Below are positions 2,050 through 11,533 of a stretch of 48,304 bases of DNA, one piece after another. The notes below the pieces were generated by a model that was given only the letters and a program-made list of their open reading frames with translations, had not been told where the DNA came from and ran no database searches. Each line of letters begins with the position of its first letter. Position 1 is the first letter of the stretch. The stretch is from a virus. A program made the translations under genes and the position numbers. Location of the stretch: positions 1-48,304 of the IMG/VR virus record IMGVR_UViG_3300042503_001536. One strand, given 5' to 3'.

Positions 2050-3038
2050 ATCACCCCTCCCAACCCCCAATCGGGCAGCTTGGCGGCCGGCCATCCCTTG
2101 CTCGGGCCGAGCGCCACGCAGTACCGATCCTCGAAGTCTTTCCACCTAGCCCAGAACGAGCCGACCGGGATGCGGAAGTTCGTACCCCGGATAATGTCAG
2201 GCCCCTTCAAGTAGTTTCCCCAACTGTTGGCGACCAGCACCAGGCCGCAGCCGTAGTGGTCGTGGATCTCGGGCCGATCGTCGGCGGCCACGATCGCCAT
2301 CGCATGCGCCCATCCCTCGGGCGTTCGCTTGCACACACCGAAGGCATCTCGCTCCTTGCTCCACGATTCACCGCCGCATGTGGACATGGCGAAGCCGTTT
2401 GCCAGCATGTCTCGAACCTGTTCCCATCCCTTGGCCACGGTCGCACTGGAGACGAGATGCTGCTGGCAAATCTGACGCACCGGCTCGGGCGGAACCGTCA
2501 ATCCCCATCGCCCCTCGGTGGTCGAGTTGTATTCGGTGAGGTCGAGGTTCACCTCGGGGTACGCTTGGCGTGGCAGCAGCCCGCACTCCTTGATCGCAAC
2601 CTCTGCGGCCGAGCTGCACTGCCAGCCATCGGTAGCCTTCCGGCGAAACCAGTAGATGCCCTCGGTCGAGAAGACACCGTTGGCAATTCCCGCTGGGGAG
2701 ATAAGTGGCGGCCGGTACTTCTCTGCGTTCGGCCCGTACATAAGATGAGCGCAGTAGGAAACGAGAGCTGCGTTGCGTGTTGACCAAGCCACGCATGAGC
2801 CGCGGCCCTGCGCACCACCAGGCAAGCAGCCGGGGTAGAAGGTCAGAGCTGCGATGAACGGGAGCGAGAGCTTGCCCCTGCCCGTGTCCTTGAGCGAGTA
2901 GTCATCGATCGCATCGCCGGCACTGGCGTACCCACCCGATTCGCGCAGGAAGAGTTCGAGGTCGGCATCCGCCCGAGGATCCGGTACGAATCCTTGGAAG
3001 CCCTGCTCATAGCTCTTGATTATTTCTGCGGTGGTCAT
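2046..3038 (-). CDS. Papain-like (C1 family) cysteine peptidase, candidate lysis enzyme
   Basis: This is a 330-residue papain-fold peptidase. The catalytic Cys82 lies in GRGSCVAWS (papain has CGSCWAFS), His245 in EGWAHAMAIVA, and Asn271 in VLVANSWGNYL (papain has KNSWG). Gln77 precedes the cysteine, as the oxyanion glutamine does. Spacing and order (Cys, His, Asn) are those of the C1A family. About 80 residues precede the active cysteine, with no clear signal peptide. Additional cysteines (71, 96, 141, 152, 191, 221, 236, 264) could form disulfides. It overlaps both neighbours by ATGA, between a signal-anchored protein and a small exported protein. No conventional endolysin is visible in the window, so it may serve that role; processing of virion or host proteins is the alternative. 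Confidence 0.8.
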   Translation of the reverse strand: MTTAEIIKSYEQGFQGFVPDPRADADLELFLRESGGYASAGDAIDDYSLKDTGRGKLSLPFIAALTFYPGCLPGGAQGRGSCVAWSTRNAALVSYCAHLMYGPNAEKYRPPLISPAGIANGVFSTEGIYWFRRKATDGWQCSSAAEVAIKECGLLPRQAYPEVNLDLTEYNSTTEGRWGLTVPPEPVRQICQQHLVSSATVAKGWEQVRDMLANGFAMSTCGGESWSKERDAFGVCKRTPEGWAHAMAIVAADDRPEIHDHYGCGLVLVANSWGNYLKGPDIIRGTNFRIPVGSFWARWKDFEDRYCVALGPSKGWPAAKLPDWGLGGVI

Positions 3039-6783: not shown

Positions 6784-8370
6784 CTATCGTGAGCGTTGTT
6801 TCTGATGCTCTCTCCTCGCGATCTCCCTGCGAATTGCCTCAATGTGAATGCGGTTGCGGCAGCTTGATTCGTTTGCCACCCACCGGAGATAGCCGGTATC
6901 GACAGTGCGAATCTTCTGCCCCTTGAATTTGCCGAACAGCATGTGGTTTTCGATGTACCAAGTTCGCTGCGGGCGCTCGGGCCGCTCGGCTTCAGCAAAC
7001 ACATCCCGTTCATATACGGCGAACCGGCCGTGCGCTGTCAGCAATTTTCTTTTCTCGACCTCGAGGGCGTGGCGGGCGGCCTCCTCACGGGCCATAGCAG
7101 CCCGCTCCTCCGCGATGACGGCATCTATCTCGGCTGGCTTTTGCCGGCCCTCCGTGGCCCTCTTGACCCGCTTCAGCAGCTCGCCCTCCAGCTCGGGGGC
7201 CAGCACCTCGACGCCGCTGCGGAGGTCGCAGTGCCTGCTGGTGTCGGTGAAATCGAACACCTCCGCGAACGGCTTGCCGCTGGCGGCGATGGCGGCGCGA
7301 CGATCCGCTGCCGTGTGCAGGCCGTCGATCACACCGGGGAGAACCCGGGTGCCGCGGCCGAACATCTGGATATAGAGGCTTTTTGATTTTGTCATTCGCG
7401 CCAAAAACAGTTTGGCGAGGGGTGGAAAGTCATAGCCGATGCAAAGGCATCCGACATTGAGGATGATCTGCACCTCACCTTCCTCGAAGTCGCGGAGGTG
7501 CTGACGCCGCTCGTCCATTTCCATCTTCGAGTGGACGATGGCGGTGTGGATCCCCCGTCTCCAGAGGATCTCTCGCAGCATCTCGGCATGCTTGATCGAT
7601 TGGCAGAAGACGATGGATGGTTTGCCTTCGTAGTACTGCTCGACCATTGAGGCGACGGCCTGCAAGTTCGCCTCCAATCGCAGCAGGGCATCCATCTTCT
7701 CTTGGTCGAAGTCACCGAACCGCCCCTTGAATGCGGACAGGTCAAGGCCTTCGAGCAGAACAGTCCATAGCTTGGTGGGTGCGAGGTAGCCATCCTCGAC
7801 CGCCCGCTGGTACGGGTAGTCGAACGCCACCGGCCCGTACCAAGCGGTGAGCGGATCACCCGAGCCTCGCTGCGGGCTGGCAGTCATGCCGACAACCTTT
7901 GTGCCGGCTTCGCGGAAGTAGCCCAGCATCTTCAGTGATGCCGGCGTGTAGTTGAGATGCGACTCGTCAATGATCAGCAGCTTGGTCTTTCCAAGGAATT
8001 GCTCATACCGTTTGCGAGAGAGCAGGCTGGCGTAGCAGGCCACGGTCACCGGCTCGGTGCTGCGCAGGAACCCCTGCTCGACGCCGCATGGAATCCCCCG
8101 CGATCTGAATCGGGCGGCAGTCTGTCCGACCAGATCGATGAAGGGGCTACAGATCACAGCACCATCGCGAGCATCCATCTCATCGATCAGTGCGGCGGCT
8201 ACCTCGGTCTTTCCCGTGCCAGTGCTTTGCGTCAGCAGACATGAGTCGTGTTCACGAAGCATGTCAACCACTGCCGCGACTGCCTGCTGCTGGTACGGTC
8301 GCAGCGTGATGCCAGCCGTCGCCGGCTTGGCTTCTCCTGCGAACAACCGAAATAGCTCTGTGTCTTCCAT
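6784..8370 (-). CDS. Superfamily 2 DEAH-type helicase with C-terminal DUF3820-like domain
   Basis: It should unwind or remodel phage DNA using ATP. Motifs are in order: a Q-like TLRPYQQQAV at 22-31, Walker A TGTGKT near 50-55, the Walker B variant DESH at 135-138, TASP at 163-166, a second RecA-like domain with VFCQS and VHSKM, and motif VI QMFGRGTR at 335-342. Such UvrB/RAD3-like helicases are common phage replication proteins. The last 50 residues (MLFGKFKGQKIRTVDTGYLR, then W-V-A-N) look like the small DUF3820 domain, F-G-K-x-K-G ... Y-L-x-W, usually a separate phage protein, so this appears to be a fusion. Start at ATG 8370. Confidence 0.85.
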   Translation of the reverse strand: MEDTELFRLFAGEAKPATAGITLRPYQQQAVAAVVDMLREHDSCLLTQSTGTGKTEVAAALIDEMDARDGAVICSPFIDLVGQTAARFRSRGIPCGVEQGFLRSTEPVTVACYASLLSRKRYEQFLGKTKLLIIDESHLNYTPASLKMLGYFREAGTKVVGMTASPQRGSGDPLTAWYGPVAFDYPYQRAVEDGYLAPTKLWTVLLEGLDLSAFKGRFGDFDQEKMDALLRLEANLQAVASMVEQYYEGKPSIVFCQSIKHAEMLREILWRRGIHTAIVHSKMEMDERRQHLRDFEEGEVQIILNVGCLCIGYDFPPLAKLFLARMTKSKSLYIQMFGRGTRVLPGVIDGLHTAADRRAAIAASGKPFAEVFDFTDTSRHCDLRSGVEVLAPELEGELLKRVKRATEGRQKPAEIDAVIAEERAAMAREEAARHALEVEKRKLLTAHGRFAVYERDVFAEAERPERPQRTWYIENHMLFGKFKGQKIRTVDTGYLRWVANESSCRNRIHIEAIRREIARREHQKQRSR

Positions 8371-8632: not shown

Positions 8633-8873
8633 GACTCACTTCCTCCATGAAGAAGGCGGAAAGTTTCTCCGCGAACATCCCACGCAGGATGTCGTGTTCC
8701 GCCATCAGCCTGCGAACATCAGCCTTCAGCGCGAGCAGTGATCCAATCACAAGCTCGAACTGCTCTTGGTCATGCATCACGAACTGGTCGCTCGTTGATG
8801 CAATCTTGTGGGCAGCATCCGCCGCGATGAGCATCCGTTGCTTCATCGCCAGCATCTCGTTGGGTGCAATCAC
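8391..8873 (-). CDS. Hypothetical helical protein with long overlapping tail
   Basis: Unrecognised. It starts at GTG 8873, overlapping the TGA of the ERF gene (GTGA). The first 80 residues are helical and natural-looking (MKQRMLIAADAAHKIASTSD, then a long LLALKADVRRLMAEHD helix). From about residue 81 the frame runs through the next gene and becomes Gly, Ser, Arg and Pro rich, without visible conservation. So either the true protein has an unselected tail or a stop codon was lost. Position between the ERF protein and the small regulator suggests a recombination accessory. Confidence 0.5.
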   Translation of the reverse strand: MIAPNEMLAMKQRMLIAADAAHKIASTSDQFVMHDQEQFELVIGSLLALKADVRRLMAEHDILRGMFAEKLSAFFMEEVSHGSTGCAETVQGVPGHEGGDSGEASRDDAPIPAGPVLRVSNARKRTGRSNPKRHRKGNSSVPVELERGDGEVAVDGGKDG

Positions 8874-9583
8874 TTCGCACCTCCCACCGGCTCGGGCTTC
8901 ACACCAGCCTTGGTCGCCGCCGCCTCGATCGCCTTGATCCGCTGCTCCGCAAGCTTCACCAGCTCGGGGAGATCGGCGGGGTTCATCTCACCAGCCTCGA
9001 CCTTCTGACGAACCTTCTCGATCTTTGCATCGACCGCCTTTTGGTTGGCCGCTGCCTGGATCGCATCGCTAGCCATCTGCTTGAGGCCGGCCCAAGCTTC
9101 GAGCTGCTCCTTCGCAAAGGTCGTGACCTCCGCAGCAACGTCTGCTGGCGTGTCATCGACACCCTTCGCGTCCGTGTCCTGCTCGGCCGCGAGGTCGAGC
9201 AGCCCCTCGATCGCCGCCCTGCGGAGCTGCGTCATCGCCGCCTTGCGCTTCCGCAGGGTGCTGGCCTCTGGGATGTCGAGGTAGCTGGTGACCCACTCGT
9301 CTTCTCGCTCGATCGTGACCGAGATGTAGCGGGCCTGGTCGTGGAACCCGTAGTCCGCATGCACCCAGACGCCGGCCTCGCAGAGCGCCTTGGCGGTTGC
9401 CCGCTTGATGGCGGTAAGCGAGGCGTAGCTGTACTGGCGACCAGTGTCATCGATCCCAATCGAGTCGAAGTGCAGCGGCCCAAATTTGAGTGACGCCTCA
9501 CACATCGCCTTGCACAGACCAGCGGTGGTCTGCGACTTCTCTCGGTAAATGCACATCCGTGTCGGCTTCGCAATCGTGTTCAC
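8870..9583 (-). CDS. erf: ERF-family single-strand annealing protein
   Basis: It likely anneals complementary single strands during phage recombination. The N-terminal 125 residues follow the ERF layout: an LCKAMCEASLKFGPLHFDSI helix-strand, YSYASLTAIKRATAKALCEA with a following G-V-W-V, a beta segment YISVTIEREDEWVTSYLDIP, then the TLRKRKAAMTQLRRAAIEGL helix, whose middle corresponds to the G-x-x-x-T-Y-x-R-R motif, and an E-Q-D-T-D-A end. The C-terminal 100 residues are charged and helical and probably protein-interacting. The start is GTG 9583, overlapping the upstream nuclease stop (GTGA), so nuclease and annealase are coupled, as in RecE/RecT-type pairs. Assignment rests on motif layout. 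Confidence 0.75.
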   Translation of the reverse strand: MNTIAKPTRMCIYREKSQTTAGLCKAMCEASLKFGPLHFDSIGIDDTGRQYSYASLTAIKRATAKALCEAGVWVHADYGFHDQARYISVTIEREDEWVTSYLDIPEASTLRKRKAAMTQLRRAAIEGLLDLAAEQDTDAKGVDDTPADVAAEVTTFAKEQLEAWAGLKQMASDAIQAAANQKAVDAKIEKVRQKVEAGEMNPADLPELVKLAEQRIKAIEAAATKAGVKPEPVGGAK

Positions 9584-10524
9584 GAATCACTCCCTTCAAT
9601 CATGTAACGAGGAACGAACAACTCATTGACACGGCCGTAATCGGCCGGCGTCCAGCAGTCCCACTCCTTGCGGCGCTGGAGATCCTTCAGCAGGGCGAGG
9701 CAGCGGCTTCGGCCCTTGGCCATGAGGGCAGCAGGGAGCTGCGCAACGTGGCAGAGATACGGCTCGGTGGTGCTGGTGATGATGAACACCATCGGGTGCG
9801 CCGGCCATCCAGCAGCCACCGCAGCCGACCCGTAGAAGGCGGCTTGGATGTCATAGCGCCACTTCTTCACACTCGAGTGAAACGTCCACTTCGGATCGGG
9901 ATCACTCGTTGTCTTGAAGTCATAGAGGACTTCAGCGGTCGCACCATCGACGCGGCACCGGCAGGCGTGGCCGTGCCACTTCCACCGGATGTTGAACTCA
10001 CGATCGACCGACTCTTCGATCAGCTCGCGGGCCGCAGAGTTGGCAAGGATCTGCCTCGTCTGATCCCATAGCTTTTTGTAGTCCGATGGCGAGAGGGCGA
10101 TGGCATCAGCGGGGAGGGCCGACTGCCACTCCTTGGCCGCTTTGCCAAACTGTCCTGTCGCCGTGAGGACATCGGCCGGGGCAATTTGAACGCGAGGCCA
10201 GAACAGCTCGTCGCGTAGCTCGCCCCAACTGTGCAGCAAGCTGCCGTAACTGAGGGCATCACTGCTTTTGGGGGGGGCTTCCCCCGCAACGTACCGGCGG
10301 TAGAATGCAACCGGTGAAAGGGCCAACTCCTTGAGTTGGGAGGCGCTGACCTCTGGGCGGGCGTGGTATTCCTCGTTTGGACAGTGGTCGATGACGCAAT
10401 CGGAATCTTCAATAGCAGCGGCCGGACTTGAACCGGCGACACCCGGCTTATGAAGCCGGTGGTCGGCAAGAGCTGCGAAAGAATCCTGCATTGCGTCAGG
10501 GTGGGTGACCCTGACGGCTGGCAT
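9580..10524 (-). CDS. RecE-like PD-(D/E)XK nuclease with attP-containing N-terminus
   Basis: The conserved domain starts near residue 52 with EEYHARPEVSASQLKELALS, the opening of RecE/DUF3799-type exonucleases. His98 lies in SYGSLLHSWGE; CRVDGATAEVLYDFKTTSDP carries the D-x(n)-D-x-K core (Asp near 193, Asp and Lys of DFKTT near 202-204), and RYDIQAAFYGSAAVAAG supplies the Q-x-x-x-Y helix. It should resect double-strand ends for the ERF annealase. ATG 10524 has AAGGAG six bases upstream. The first 45 residues are not part of the family domain: codons for residues 22-38 are a tRNA-Met 3' half, and no ATG, GTG or TTG lies between there and the conserved domain. Confidence 0.8.
   Translation of the reverse strand: MPAVRVTHPDAMQDSFAALADHRLHKPGVAGSSPAAAIEDSDCVIDHCPNEEYHARPEVSASQLKELALSPVAFYRRYVAGEAPPKSSDALSYGSLLHSWGELRDELFWPRVQIAPADVLTATGQFGKAAKEWQSALPADAIALSPSDYKKLWDQTRQILANSAARELIEESVDREFNIRWKWHGHACRCRVDGATAEVLYDFKTTSDPDPKWTFHSSVKKWRYDIQAAFYGSAAVAAGWPAHPMVFIITSTTEPYLCHVAQLPAALMAKGRSRCLALLKDLQRRKEWDCWTPADYGRVNELFVPRYMIEGSDS
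10413..10459 (-). other. attP: Probable attP core: tRNA-Met(CAT) 3' half
   Basis: On the minus strand there is a well-formed anticodon stem-loop (stem CCGGC/GCCGG, loop TTCATAA with anticodon CAT at 10450-10452), a five-base variable loop, a perfect T arm (GCCGG/CCGGC with loop TTCAAGT), then the acceptor 3' strand CGCTGCT and discriminator A. The 5' half is not a tRNA: only a GCAGC at 10472-10476 could pair with the acceptor, and no proper D arm fits. A tRNA 3' half beside a tyrosine integrase is the usual form of attP for phages integrating in tRNA genes. It lies in the coding sequence of the adjacent nuclease. A D-armless tRNA is the weaker alternative. Confidence 0.7.
10494..10516 (-). 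repeat. Perfect 9-bp inverted repeat (att region)
   Basis: CGTCAGGGT at 10494-10502 pairs with ACCCTGACG at 10508-10516 across a five-base spacer. It sits inside the first codons of the RecE-like gene, between its start and the attP core, and could be an integrase or regulator site, or a hairpin at the start of the message. Confidence 0.6.
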
Positions 10525-10530
10525 GTATCT

Positions 10531-10536
10531 CTCCTT
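10531..10536 (-). promoter_or_regulatory. Ribosome binding site deciding the nuclease start
   Basis: Minus-strand AAGGAG lies six bases before ATG 10524. It argues that translation really begins upstream of the tRNA-like sequence, so the tRNA-derived codons are translated. Confidence 0.75.
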
Positions 10537-10557
10537 CTACGGGGTGATAGCTCGGCT

Positions 10558-10672: not shown

Positions 10673-11533
10673 ATGGTTGCAACACTGAGCAACACAATGT
10701 CCATCCTTGAATTACTCGACCGCTATATGGCGGCCGTTGAGGTCAGTCCACGGTATGCAGAATCCCTTCTGAGAACCGTCAGACGGGCGAAAGATAATTG
10801 CCTGCTGACAGTCTGTCAACTGATCCCAGAGCGGGTGAACAAGTTTCTAGCAGACTTGGATGTTGGGCAGACCACTAGGCACAATATCCGCCGCGAATTG
10901 CTGACTCTTTGGCGGTTCGCTTATGAGCGTGGTTTGACCGAGGTGTACCCTGCGCGGGTGCGCAAGATCCGTGCCACGTTTGCCCCACCCGTAACGTGGG
11001 AGCTGTCCCGTCTCGACCAGCTCCTAGCCGCAGCAGATTCTGACGAAACTCGAATCAGTTCTCGGGTGCTGCTGCGTCGATGCGATGTGATCCCGGCGTG
11101 GGCGGGCATCGCCTATGACACCGGCATGCGTTTTGCGGACGTTCATGCACTGACAAAGAACAGCTTCCGCAATGAATGCGTTGCTATCACCGCGGCCAAG
11201 ACGGGCAAGCCGTTGGTGAGGGCGCTCTCTGAGCGGACGCAGCATGACGTTGCCAGACTGTTCTTGCATTCGCCTGACGGGACGCTGTTCAAGTGGTGTC
11301 TGCCACGCCGCCGAGCGTTCCTTATGTGGAGGGCCTTCCTCGACCAGCACAAGTTCGGGGGATCCACGAAGTGGTTCCGCCGTGCGGCGGCCACCGCGAT
11401 CGAACAGGTGAAGCCGGGGGCCGCCACGGACTTCCTTCAGCACAGTCACCCATCCCTGGTCAGGCGGCATTACCTCGATGCCACCCAGGCGGCGATACCG
11501 ATGTCGCCTCCCCCGATTAGGAAGCCGAGGTGA
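10673..11533 (+). CDS. int: Tyrosine recombinase (phage integrase)
   Basis: It catalyses integration and probably excision at the adjacent attP. Numbering from ATG 10673, which has GGAG eight bases upstream: a SAM-like core-binding domain at about 10-100, then the catalytic domain with Arg153 (YDTGMRFADVHAL), Lys176 (AAKTGKP), an HxxR-type box read as K233-W-F-R236, His257 (LQHSHPS) and the nucleophile Tyr267 (VRRHYLDAT). At 286 residues it is short and lacks an obvious arm-binding N-terminal domain, although an upstream in-frame extension to 10505 exists. The usual HxxR histidine appears to be lysine. Its stop abuts, base to base, the stop of the convergent virion arm. Confidence 0.85.
   Translation: MVATLSNTMSILELLDRYMAAVEVSPRYAESLLRTVRRAKDNCLLTVCQLIPERVNKFLADLDVGQTTRHNIRRELLTLWRFAYERGLTEVYPARVRKIRATFAPPVTWELSRLDQLLAAADSDETRISSRVLLRRCDVIPAWAGIAYDTGMRFADVHALTKNSFRNECVAITAAKTGKPLVRALSERTQHDVARLFLHSPDGTLFKWCLPRRRAFLMWRAFLDQHKFGGSTKWFRRAAATAIEQVKPGAATDFLQHSHPSLVRRHYLDATQAAIPMSPPPIRKPR

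Follow-up and report, generated by a model that had tools for sequence, protein, structure and literature searches.

A phage attachment site inside the coding start of a RecE-like nuclease gene probably couples integration to nuclease shutoff in viruses of planctomycetes

In the viral sequence IMGVR_UViG_3300042503_001536 of the IMG/VR database, a RecE-like nuclease gene carries the 3' half of a tRNA-Met gene within its 5' coding region, beside a divergent gene for a tyrosine integrase. Our analysis covered positions 1 to 48,304 of this record, a stretch of 48,304 nucleotides that we refer to as the window. The nuclease open reading frame (ORF; 9580 to 10524, minus strand) encodes 314 amino acids from an ATG at 10524 that is preceded by AAGGAG. 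Its product matches exonuclease VIII of PHROG 412 (E = 2.5e-43) and Pfam DUF3799 (1e-13), its predicted fold is nearest to that of Escherichia coli RecE (3h4r; Foldseek E = 3e-12, TM 0.81 by target length), and residues H98, E102, D193, D202, and K204 are invariant, as in PD-(D/E)XK nucleases of the RecE/exonuclease VIII type. The integrase (10673 to 11533, plus strand) matches PHROG 1 (1.3e-11). In the family alignment it has the invariant residues of a tyrosine integrase (R153, K176, R237, H257, and Y267, numbered from the ATG at 10673), with the box II histidine replaced by lysine or arginine in the aligned sequences. It lies between recognized virion genes and early genes, both of which are on the minus strand.

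The tRNA segment is a 47-mer, CCGGCTTCATAAGCCGGGTGTCGCCGGTTCAAGTCCGGCCGCTGCTA (10413 to 10459, minus strand), that corresponds to the 3' half of tRNA-Met(CAT), comprising the anticodon stem-loop, variable loop, T arm, acceptor 3' strand, and discriminator A. Read in the nuclease frame, it encodes RLHKPGVAGSSPAAA, residues 23 to 37 of the protein. Upstream is a leader (10460 to 10536, minus strand) made up of the AAGGAG, the ATG at 10524, and 22 codons. The catalytic domain begins with a YH motif 15 codons downstream of the segment, and between the two the frame has no ATG, GTG, or TTG; the first start-type codon after the segment is a TTG at about residue 67, within a predicted helix of the nuclease fold. 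A preliminary description of the window, made from sequence, had reported a tRNA-Met 3' half in frame after AAGGAG and the ATG at 10524, a start-free stretch before the catalytic domain, and an adjoining tyrosine integrase. All three held up, with two refinements: the second holds as far as the YH motif, and another in-frame ATG lies 11 codons upstream of the segment. The segment is not a complete phage tRNA gene, since ARAGORN found none in the window and the Rfam tRNA score of 25 bits is under the 29-bit cutoff. In an AlphaFold2 model of the nuclease, residues 1 to 40 are predicted to be disordered (predicted local distance difference test [pLDDT] of about 31 to 38), and the domain that begins at residue 41 is mostly above 85, with 56 at the C-terminal end. 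Such a disordered tail is predicted to explain how the nuclease tolerates residues encoded by a tRNA.

The preliminary description had proposed that this segment is the core of the phage attachment site (attP) and had suggested searching hosts for a tRNA-Met gene with the same end. We found the exact 47-mer in 21 planctomycete contigs from metagenome-assembled genomes (MAGs), and in 20 of them it ends a complete tRNA-Met(CAT) gene. Because the identical 47-mer ends complete genes at 20 of 21 loci, its occurrence in the window is far beyond chance, and identity over 47 of 47 nucleotides with 20 intact host genes is what is expected of an attP used by a tRNA-targeting tyrosine recombinase. The remaining contig (L017) is a prophage junction.

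Natural junctions in planctomycete MAGs reveal what integration does to the gene in relatives of the window phage. At the attR of L017, the order is a divergent integrase (52% identical to that of the window), a leader that is equivalent to that of the window and has a TTG after GAGGAG, the core, and then host DNA that is 93% identical to the sequence after the intact tRNA-Met gene in L030 and 94% identical to that in L020. Behind this integrase lies another from the same family, truncated where the contig ends (L017, 3001 to 3666), which suggests stacked elements at this tRNA-Met. An attL was found at L060 (G016:C271) by a nuclease profile search of 72 genomes of one planctomycete family. There, a complete tRNA-Met gene is followed directly by a co-oriented nuclease body, and the host flank beyond the tRNA is 85 to 87% identical to L033 and L024 over about 1.39 kb. 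Both flanks are present in L030, where the site is unoccupied. The L060 nuclease frame is open and undamaged for 288 codons after the core and is closed upstream by a TAG in the D arm of the tRNA; from that TAG onward it contains no ATG, GTG, or TTG until a GTG at codon 148 after the core, and ORF calling recovers just 140 amino acids of the nuclease. Because the frame is intact yet startless to codon 148, these relatives document a natural loss of the nuclease start codon on integration, with one junction in each of two genomes. Junctions of both kinds in host genomes are what a tRNA-targeting attP predicts, and they agree with the earlier proposal that the body stays with the rebuilt tRNA and the leader with the integrase. 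The loss of start codon and ribosome binding site that had been anticipated is likewise seen in these relatives; a promoter, whose loss had been anticipated too, was not identified in the leader region. Directly behind the tRNA in L060, inside the startless nuclease frame, is a long GC-rich inverted repeat (CGCCCGGCCCCGG...CCGGGGTCGGGCG; about 2300 to 2341, minus strand), which, to judge from its sequence, might stop read-through. An earlier single-protein search of eight MAGs gave no junction, order- and phylum-wide nuclease searches gave no further one, though their final matches were not inspected for attachment sites, and no viral contigs had an intact tRNA-Met gene at provirus ends.

To gather relatives, we searched with the exact core, a nuclease profile, and an integrase profile. 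In 28 viral contigs, including the window, a tRNA 3' half lies in the nuclease 5' coding region. These represent 19 nuclease lineages at 90% identity, and the nuclease bodies that share the layout are as little as 35 to 36% identical to that of the window. Among named phage records, the integrase had no relative, and nuclease relatives among the matches listed were about 30% identical or less. The nuclease-profile search, which is independent of the core, placed the core in the nuclease at 16 of 23 loci and in an inserted gene at two (L053 and L056); three loci (L042, L055, and L057) had neither a core nor an integrase of the family within 3 kb upstream, and two (L043 and L058) had an integrase with no recognized core. 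Two of the three integrase-less relatives, L042 and L057, were inspected in detail. In both, the nuclease starts at an ATG of its own, some two dozen codons ahead of the YH motif and near the core position of the others. Their nuclease lacks the tRNA segment, and there is no integrase ORF between it and the preceding large gene.

Most relatives read the Met core as RLHKPGVAGSSPAAA (frame 1), three (L068, L071, and L085) read it in frame 2 as GFISRVSPVQVRPPL or a variant, and the third frame contains TAA. In four others (L052, L054, L067, and L069), the half is that of tRNA-Gly(CCC), and host tRNA-Gly genes contain the Gly core of L067 and L069 without mismatch. A conserved tRNA-encoded peptide was rejected in view of the three phages with a different frame and the four with a different tRNA; the conserved feature is the DNA and its position. 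An attP elsewhere in related phages, which would have spoken against the proposal, was not what we saw, as relatives keep the same placement. Nevertheless, the layout could be a tolerated by-product: an integrase-attP cassette may have moved beside the nuclease and overrun its start, the disordered N terminus accepting any open frame, so that the start is lost at integration, other regulators hold lysogeny, and the coupling has no regulatory value. The variability of leader, frame, and tRNA identity, together with the predicted disorder, is in keeping with this view, as are uncoupled relatives (L053, L056, L043, L058, and L076) and a downstream gene with its own start (see below). Against it stands the retention of the layout in 19 lineages despite changes of tRNA and frame.

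Start codons bear on the same question. Across the 19 lineages, the interval from core to YH motif holds three start codons, all TTG, in 241 codons, compared with 10.8 expected from the rate in nuclease bodies (P = 0.005). None of the lineages has an ATG or GTG between core and YH motif, and there are just three TTG, so a nuclease start after the core, another outcome that had been named as a refutation, was rejected. Together with the host tRNA-Met match and the shared placement in relatives, this means that none of the three outcomes named in advance as refutations was observed. As a pattern in sequence, the depletion fits with selection for a body that is unable to start alone, and it further disfavors the by-product account. 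So does the failure to recognize a repressor-like protein among the early ORFs scanned, though most of these lack any database match. Overall, we regard a tolerated by-product as unlikely.

The core might instead act as RNA, that is, as a tRNA-like domain of the nuclease mRNA that is processed or bound by host tRNA enzymes for post-transcriptional control. An acceptor-like stem closes the tRNA half in RNA folds of the window and L009 (z scores of -4.0 and -4.8), and ARAGORN calls a tRNA in L007 and L014. The latter calls were rejected because their 5' part is unrelated sequence attached to the tRNA half. A conserved tRNA-like domain was also rejected, since in 17 phages the acceptor-like 5' partners were no better than shuffles. 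The T arm and anticodon stem, which tRNA identity alone dictates, contribute much of the fold energy, and the attL and attR junctions already account for the sequence, making an RNA role highly improbable. At the start of the nuclease mRNA (window, 10405 to 10540, minus strand; L009, 590 to 730), the predicted tRNA-like domain is closed by GCAGC/GCTGC, a feature that is not general among relatives.

Taken together, our results make it probable that the attP core of the neighboring integrase lies inside the start of the RecE-like nuclease gene such that integration turns the nuclease off and excision restores it. In the free phage genome, the nuclease would start at the leader ATG, and the tRNA sequence would be translated as a disordered N-terminal tail. 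When the phage integrates at the tRNA-Met gene of its host, its own 3' half would rebuild the tRNA. The nuclease body, that is, the catalytic domain (9583 to 10413, minus strand), would then be found at attL directly behind the tRNA, and the leader would remain with the integrase at the opposite prophage end. Left without ribosome binding site, start codon, and phage leader, the nuclease would therefore be off in the prophage until excision rejoined leader and body. We infer that the window phage undergoes the same process, including restoration of the nuclease on excision, and that the coupling was selected for silencing early recombination and replication genes during lysogeny.

Those genes follow the nuclease in the same direction. 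An ERF-like single-strand annealing protein (8870 to 9583, minus strand; PHROG 2324, 2.1e-8) begins at a GTG that overlaps the nuclease stop codon. It is followed by a superfamily 2 DNA helicase of the same co-directional block (6784 to 8370, minus strand; PHROG 16, 2.1e-67; Pfam ResIII/Helicase_C), an HNH-like protein, and a RusA-like resolvase. If the promoter is on the leader side, the whole early operon may be silenced by integration. A search of the leader region for a sigma-70 promoter that would drive the nuclease found none, a negative that carries little weight for planctomycetes. The leader does contain a dyad, GTCAGGGT-N5-ACCCTGAC (10495 to 10515, minus strand), a possible operator or integrase arm site to judge from its form. 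This dyad (GTCAGG...CCTGAC) is shared by four phages (the window, L005, L007, and L009), although the ends of its arms differ. More broadly, integration could itself be the lysis-lysogeny switch of widespread planctomycete phages, disconnecting the operon from promoter and start, with excision reconnecting them, possibly with no classical repressor, and with the layout selected through changes of tRNA and frame. We offer this broader view tentatively, as a possibility that is rather doubtful.

Yet, several observations weigh against nuclease shutoff by integration. The attL and attR come from two different MAGs and not from one prophage, and a lysogen of the window phage was not found in our searches of planctomycete MAGs. 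Read-through transcription of the body in the prophage is possible because the body is co-oriented and just downstream of the tRNA-Met gene. Furthermore, the ERF gene keeps its own overlapping start codon, from which it could be translated in the prophage. The depletion statistic uses lineages that share ancestry and one short region, and the frame-2 phages keep a GTG inside the core. Coupling of nuclease and attP is not indispensable, given that in L053 and L056 the core belongs to an inserted endonuclease gene and the nuclease starts at a separate ATG. The inserted gene is endonuclease VII-like, lies between a tRNA-Gly core and the nuclease (2198 to 2947 in both), and uses leader and core as its own start. 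It is bounded by a repeated TCGCCCGCTTTT-like stretch that the nuclease ATG adjoins, and its sequence suggests that it was inserted precisely at the attP core. Finally, integrase and nuclease are adjacent with no recognized tRNA half in L043 (2833 to 3804), L058, and L076, which may use a different integration target.

The layout belongs to a virus family of planctomycete bacteria. Its retention through 19 lineages, with two tRNA targets and two frames, makes it testable whether integration alone can enforce dormancy. It also carries a warning for annotation, in that the nuclease of a prophage looks truncated or absent to gene callers even where its frame is intact.

Known systems share parts of this arrangement. 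In BPs and mycobacteriophages of clusters G, I, N, and P, attP lies in the repressor gene, and integration removes 33 C-terminal residues to give the lysogenic form (PMC4557955). As in that integration-dependent immunity, attP here lies within a phage gene, so that integration would alter the gene's product, through which the mycobacteriophages couple integration to the lysogenic state. Unlike theirs, the gene affected encodes an exonuclease, which loses its start codon and leader, in place of a repressor with an active prophage form; a repressor is not involved as far as we have seen. Suicidal integrases of the archaeal SSV type, reviewed as exclusively archaeal, likewise recombine at a site inside a coding gene that integration splits, and in pTN3 the 3' part of the split gene is left behind a tRNA-Leu promoter (PMC8371274). 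In SSV-type elements the integrase itself is split, whereas in these bacterial phages the integrase stays whole and the core lies outside it, in the divergent exonuclease gene that is split. Ordinary tRNA-targeting tyrosine integrases use a core of 30 to 45 bp that rebuilds the tRNA (PMC10865867). The tRNA is rebuilt at attL here too, but their attP usually neighbors the integrase gene, whereas the present one is embedded in the coding start of an early gene. Myxococcus phage Mx8 has its attP within the integrase gene; it resembles the present case in that integration alters a phage gene and differs in that the altered gene is the integrase. Among the papers listed by our literature searches, mainly from outside subscription journals, we found no attP in a RecE-like or other recombination exonuclease. 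The integration-controlled genes described so far are a repressor and integrases, whereas here the gene encodes the exonuclease at the head of an early recombination block, and control would be by removal of its start codon and not by trimming of its end. Taking away the start codon of such an exonuclease appears to be a new form of integration-coupled gene control.
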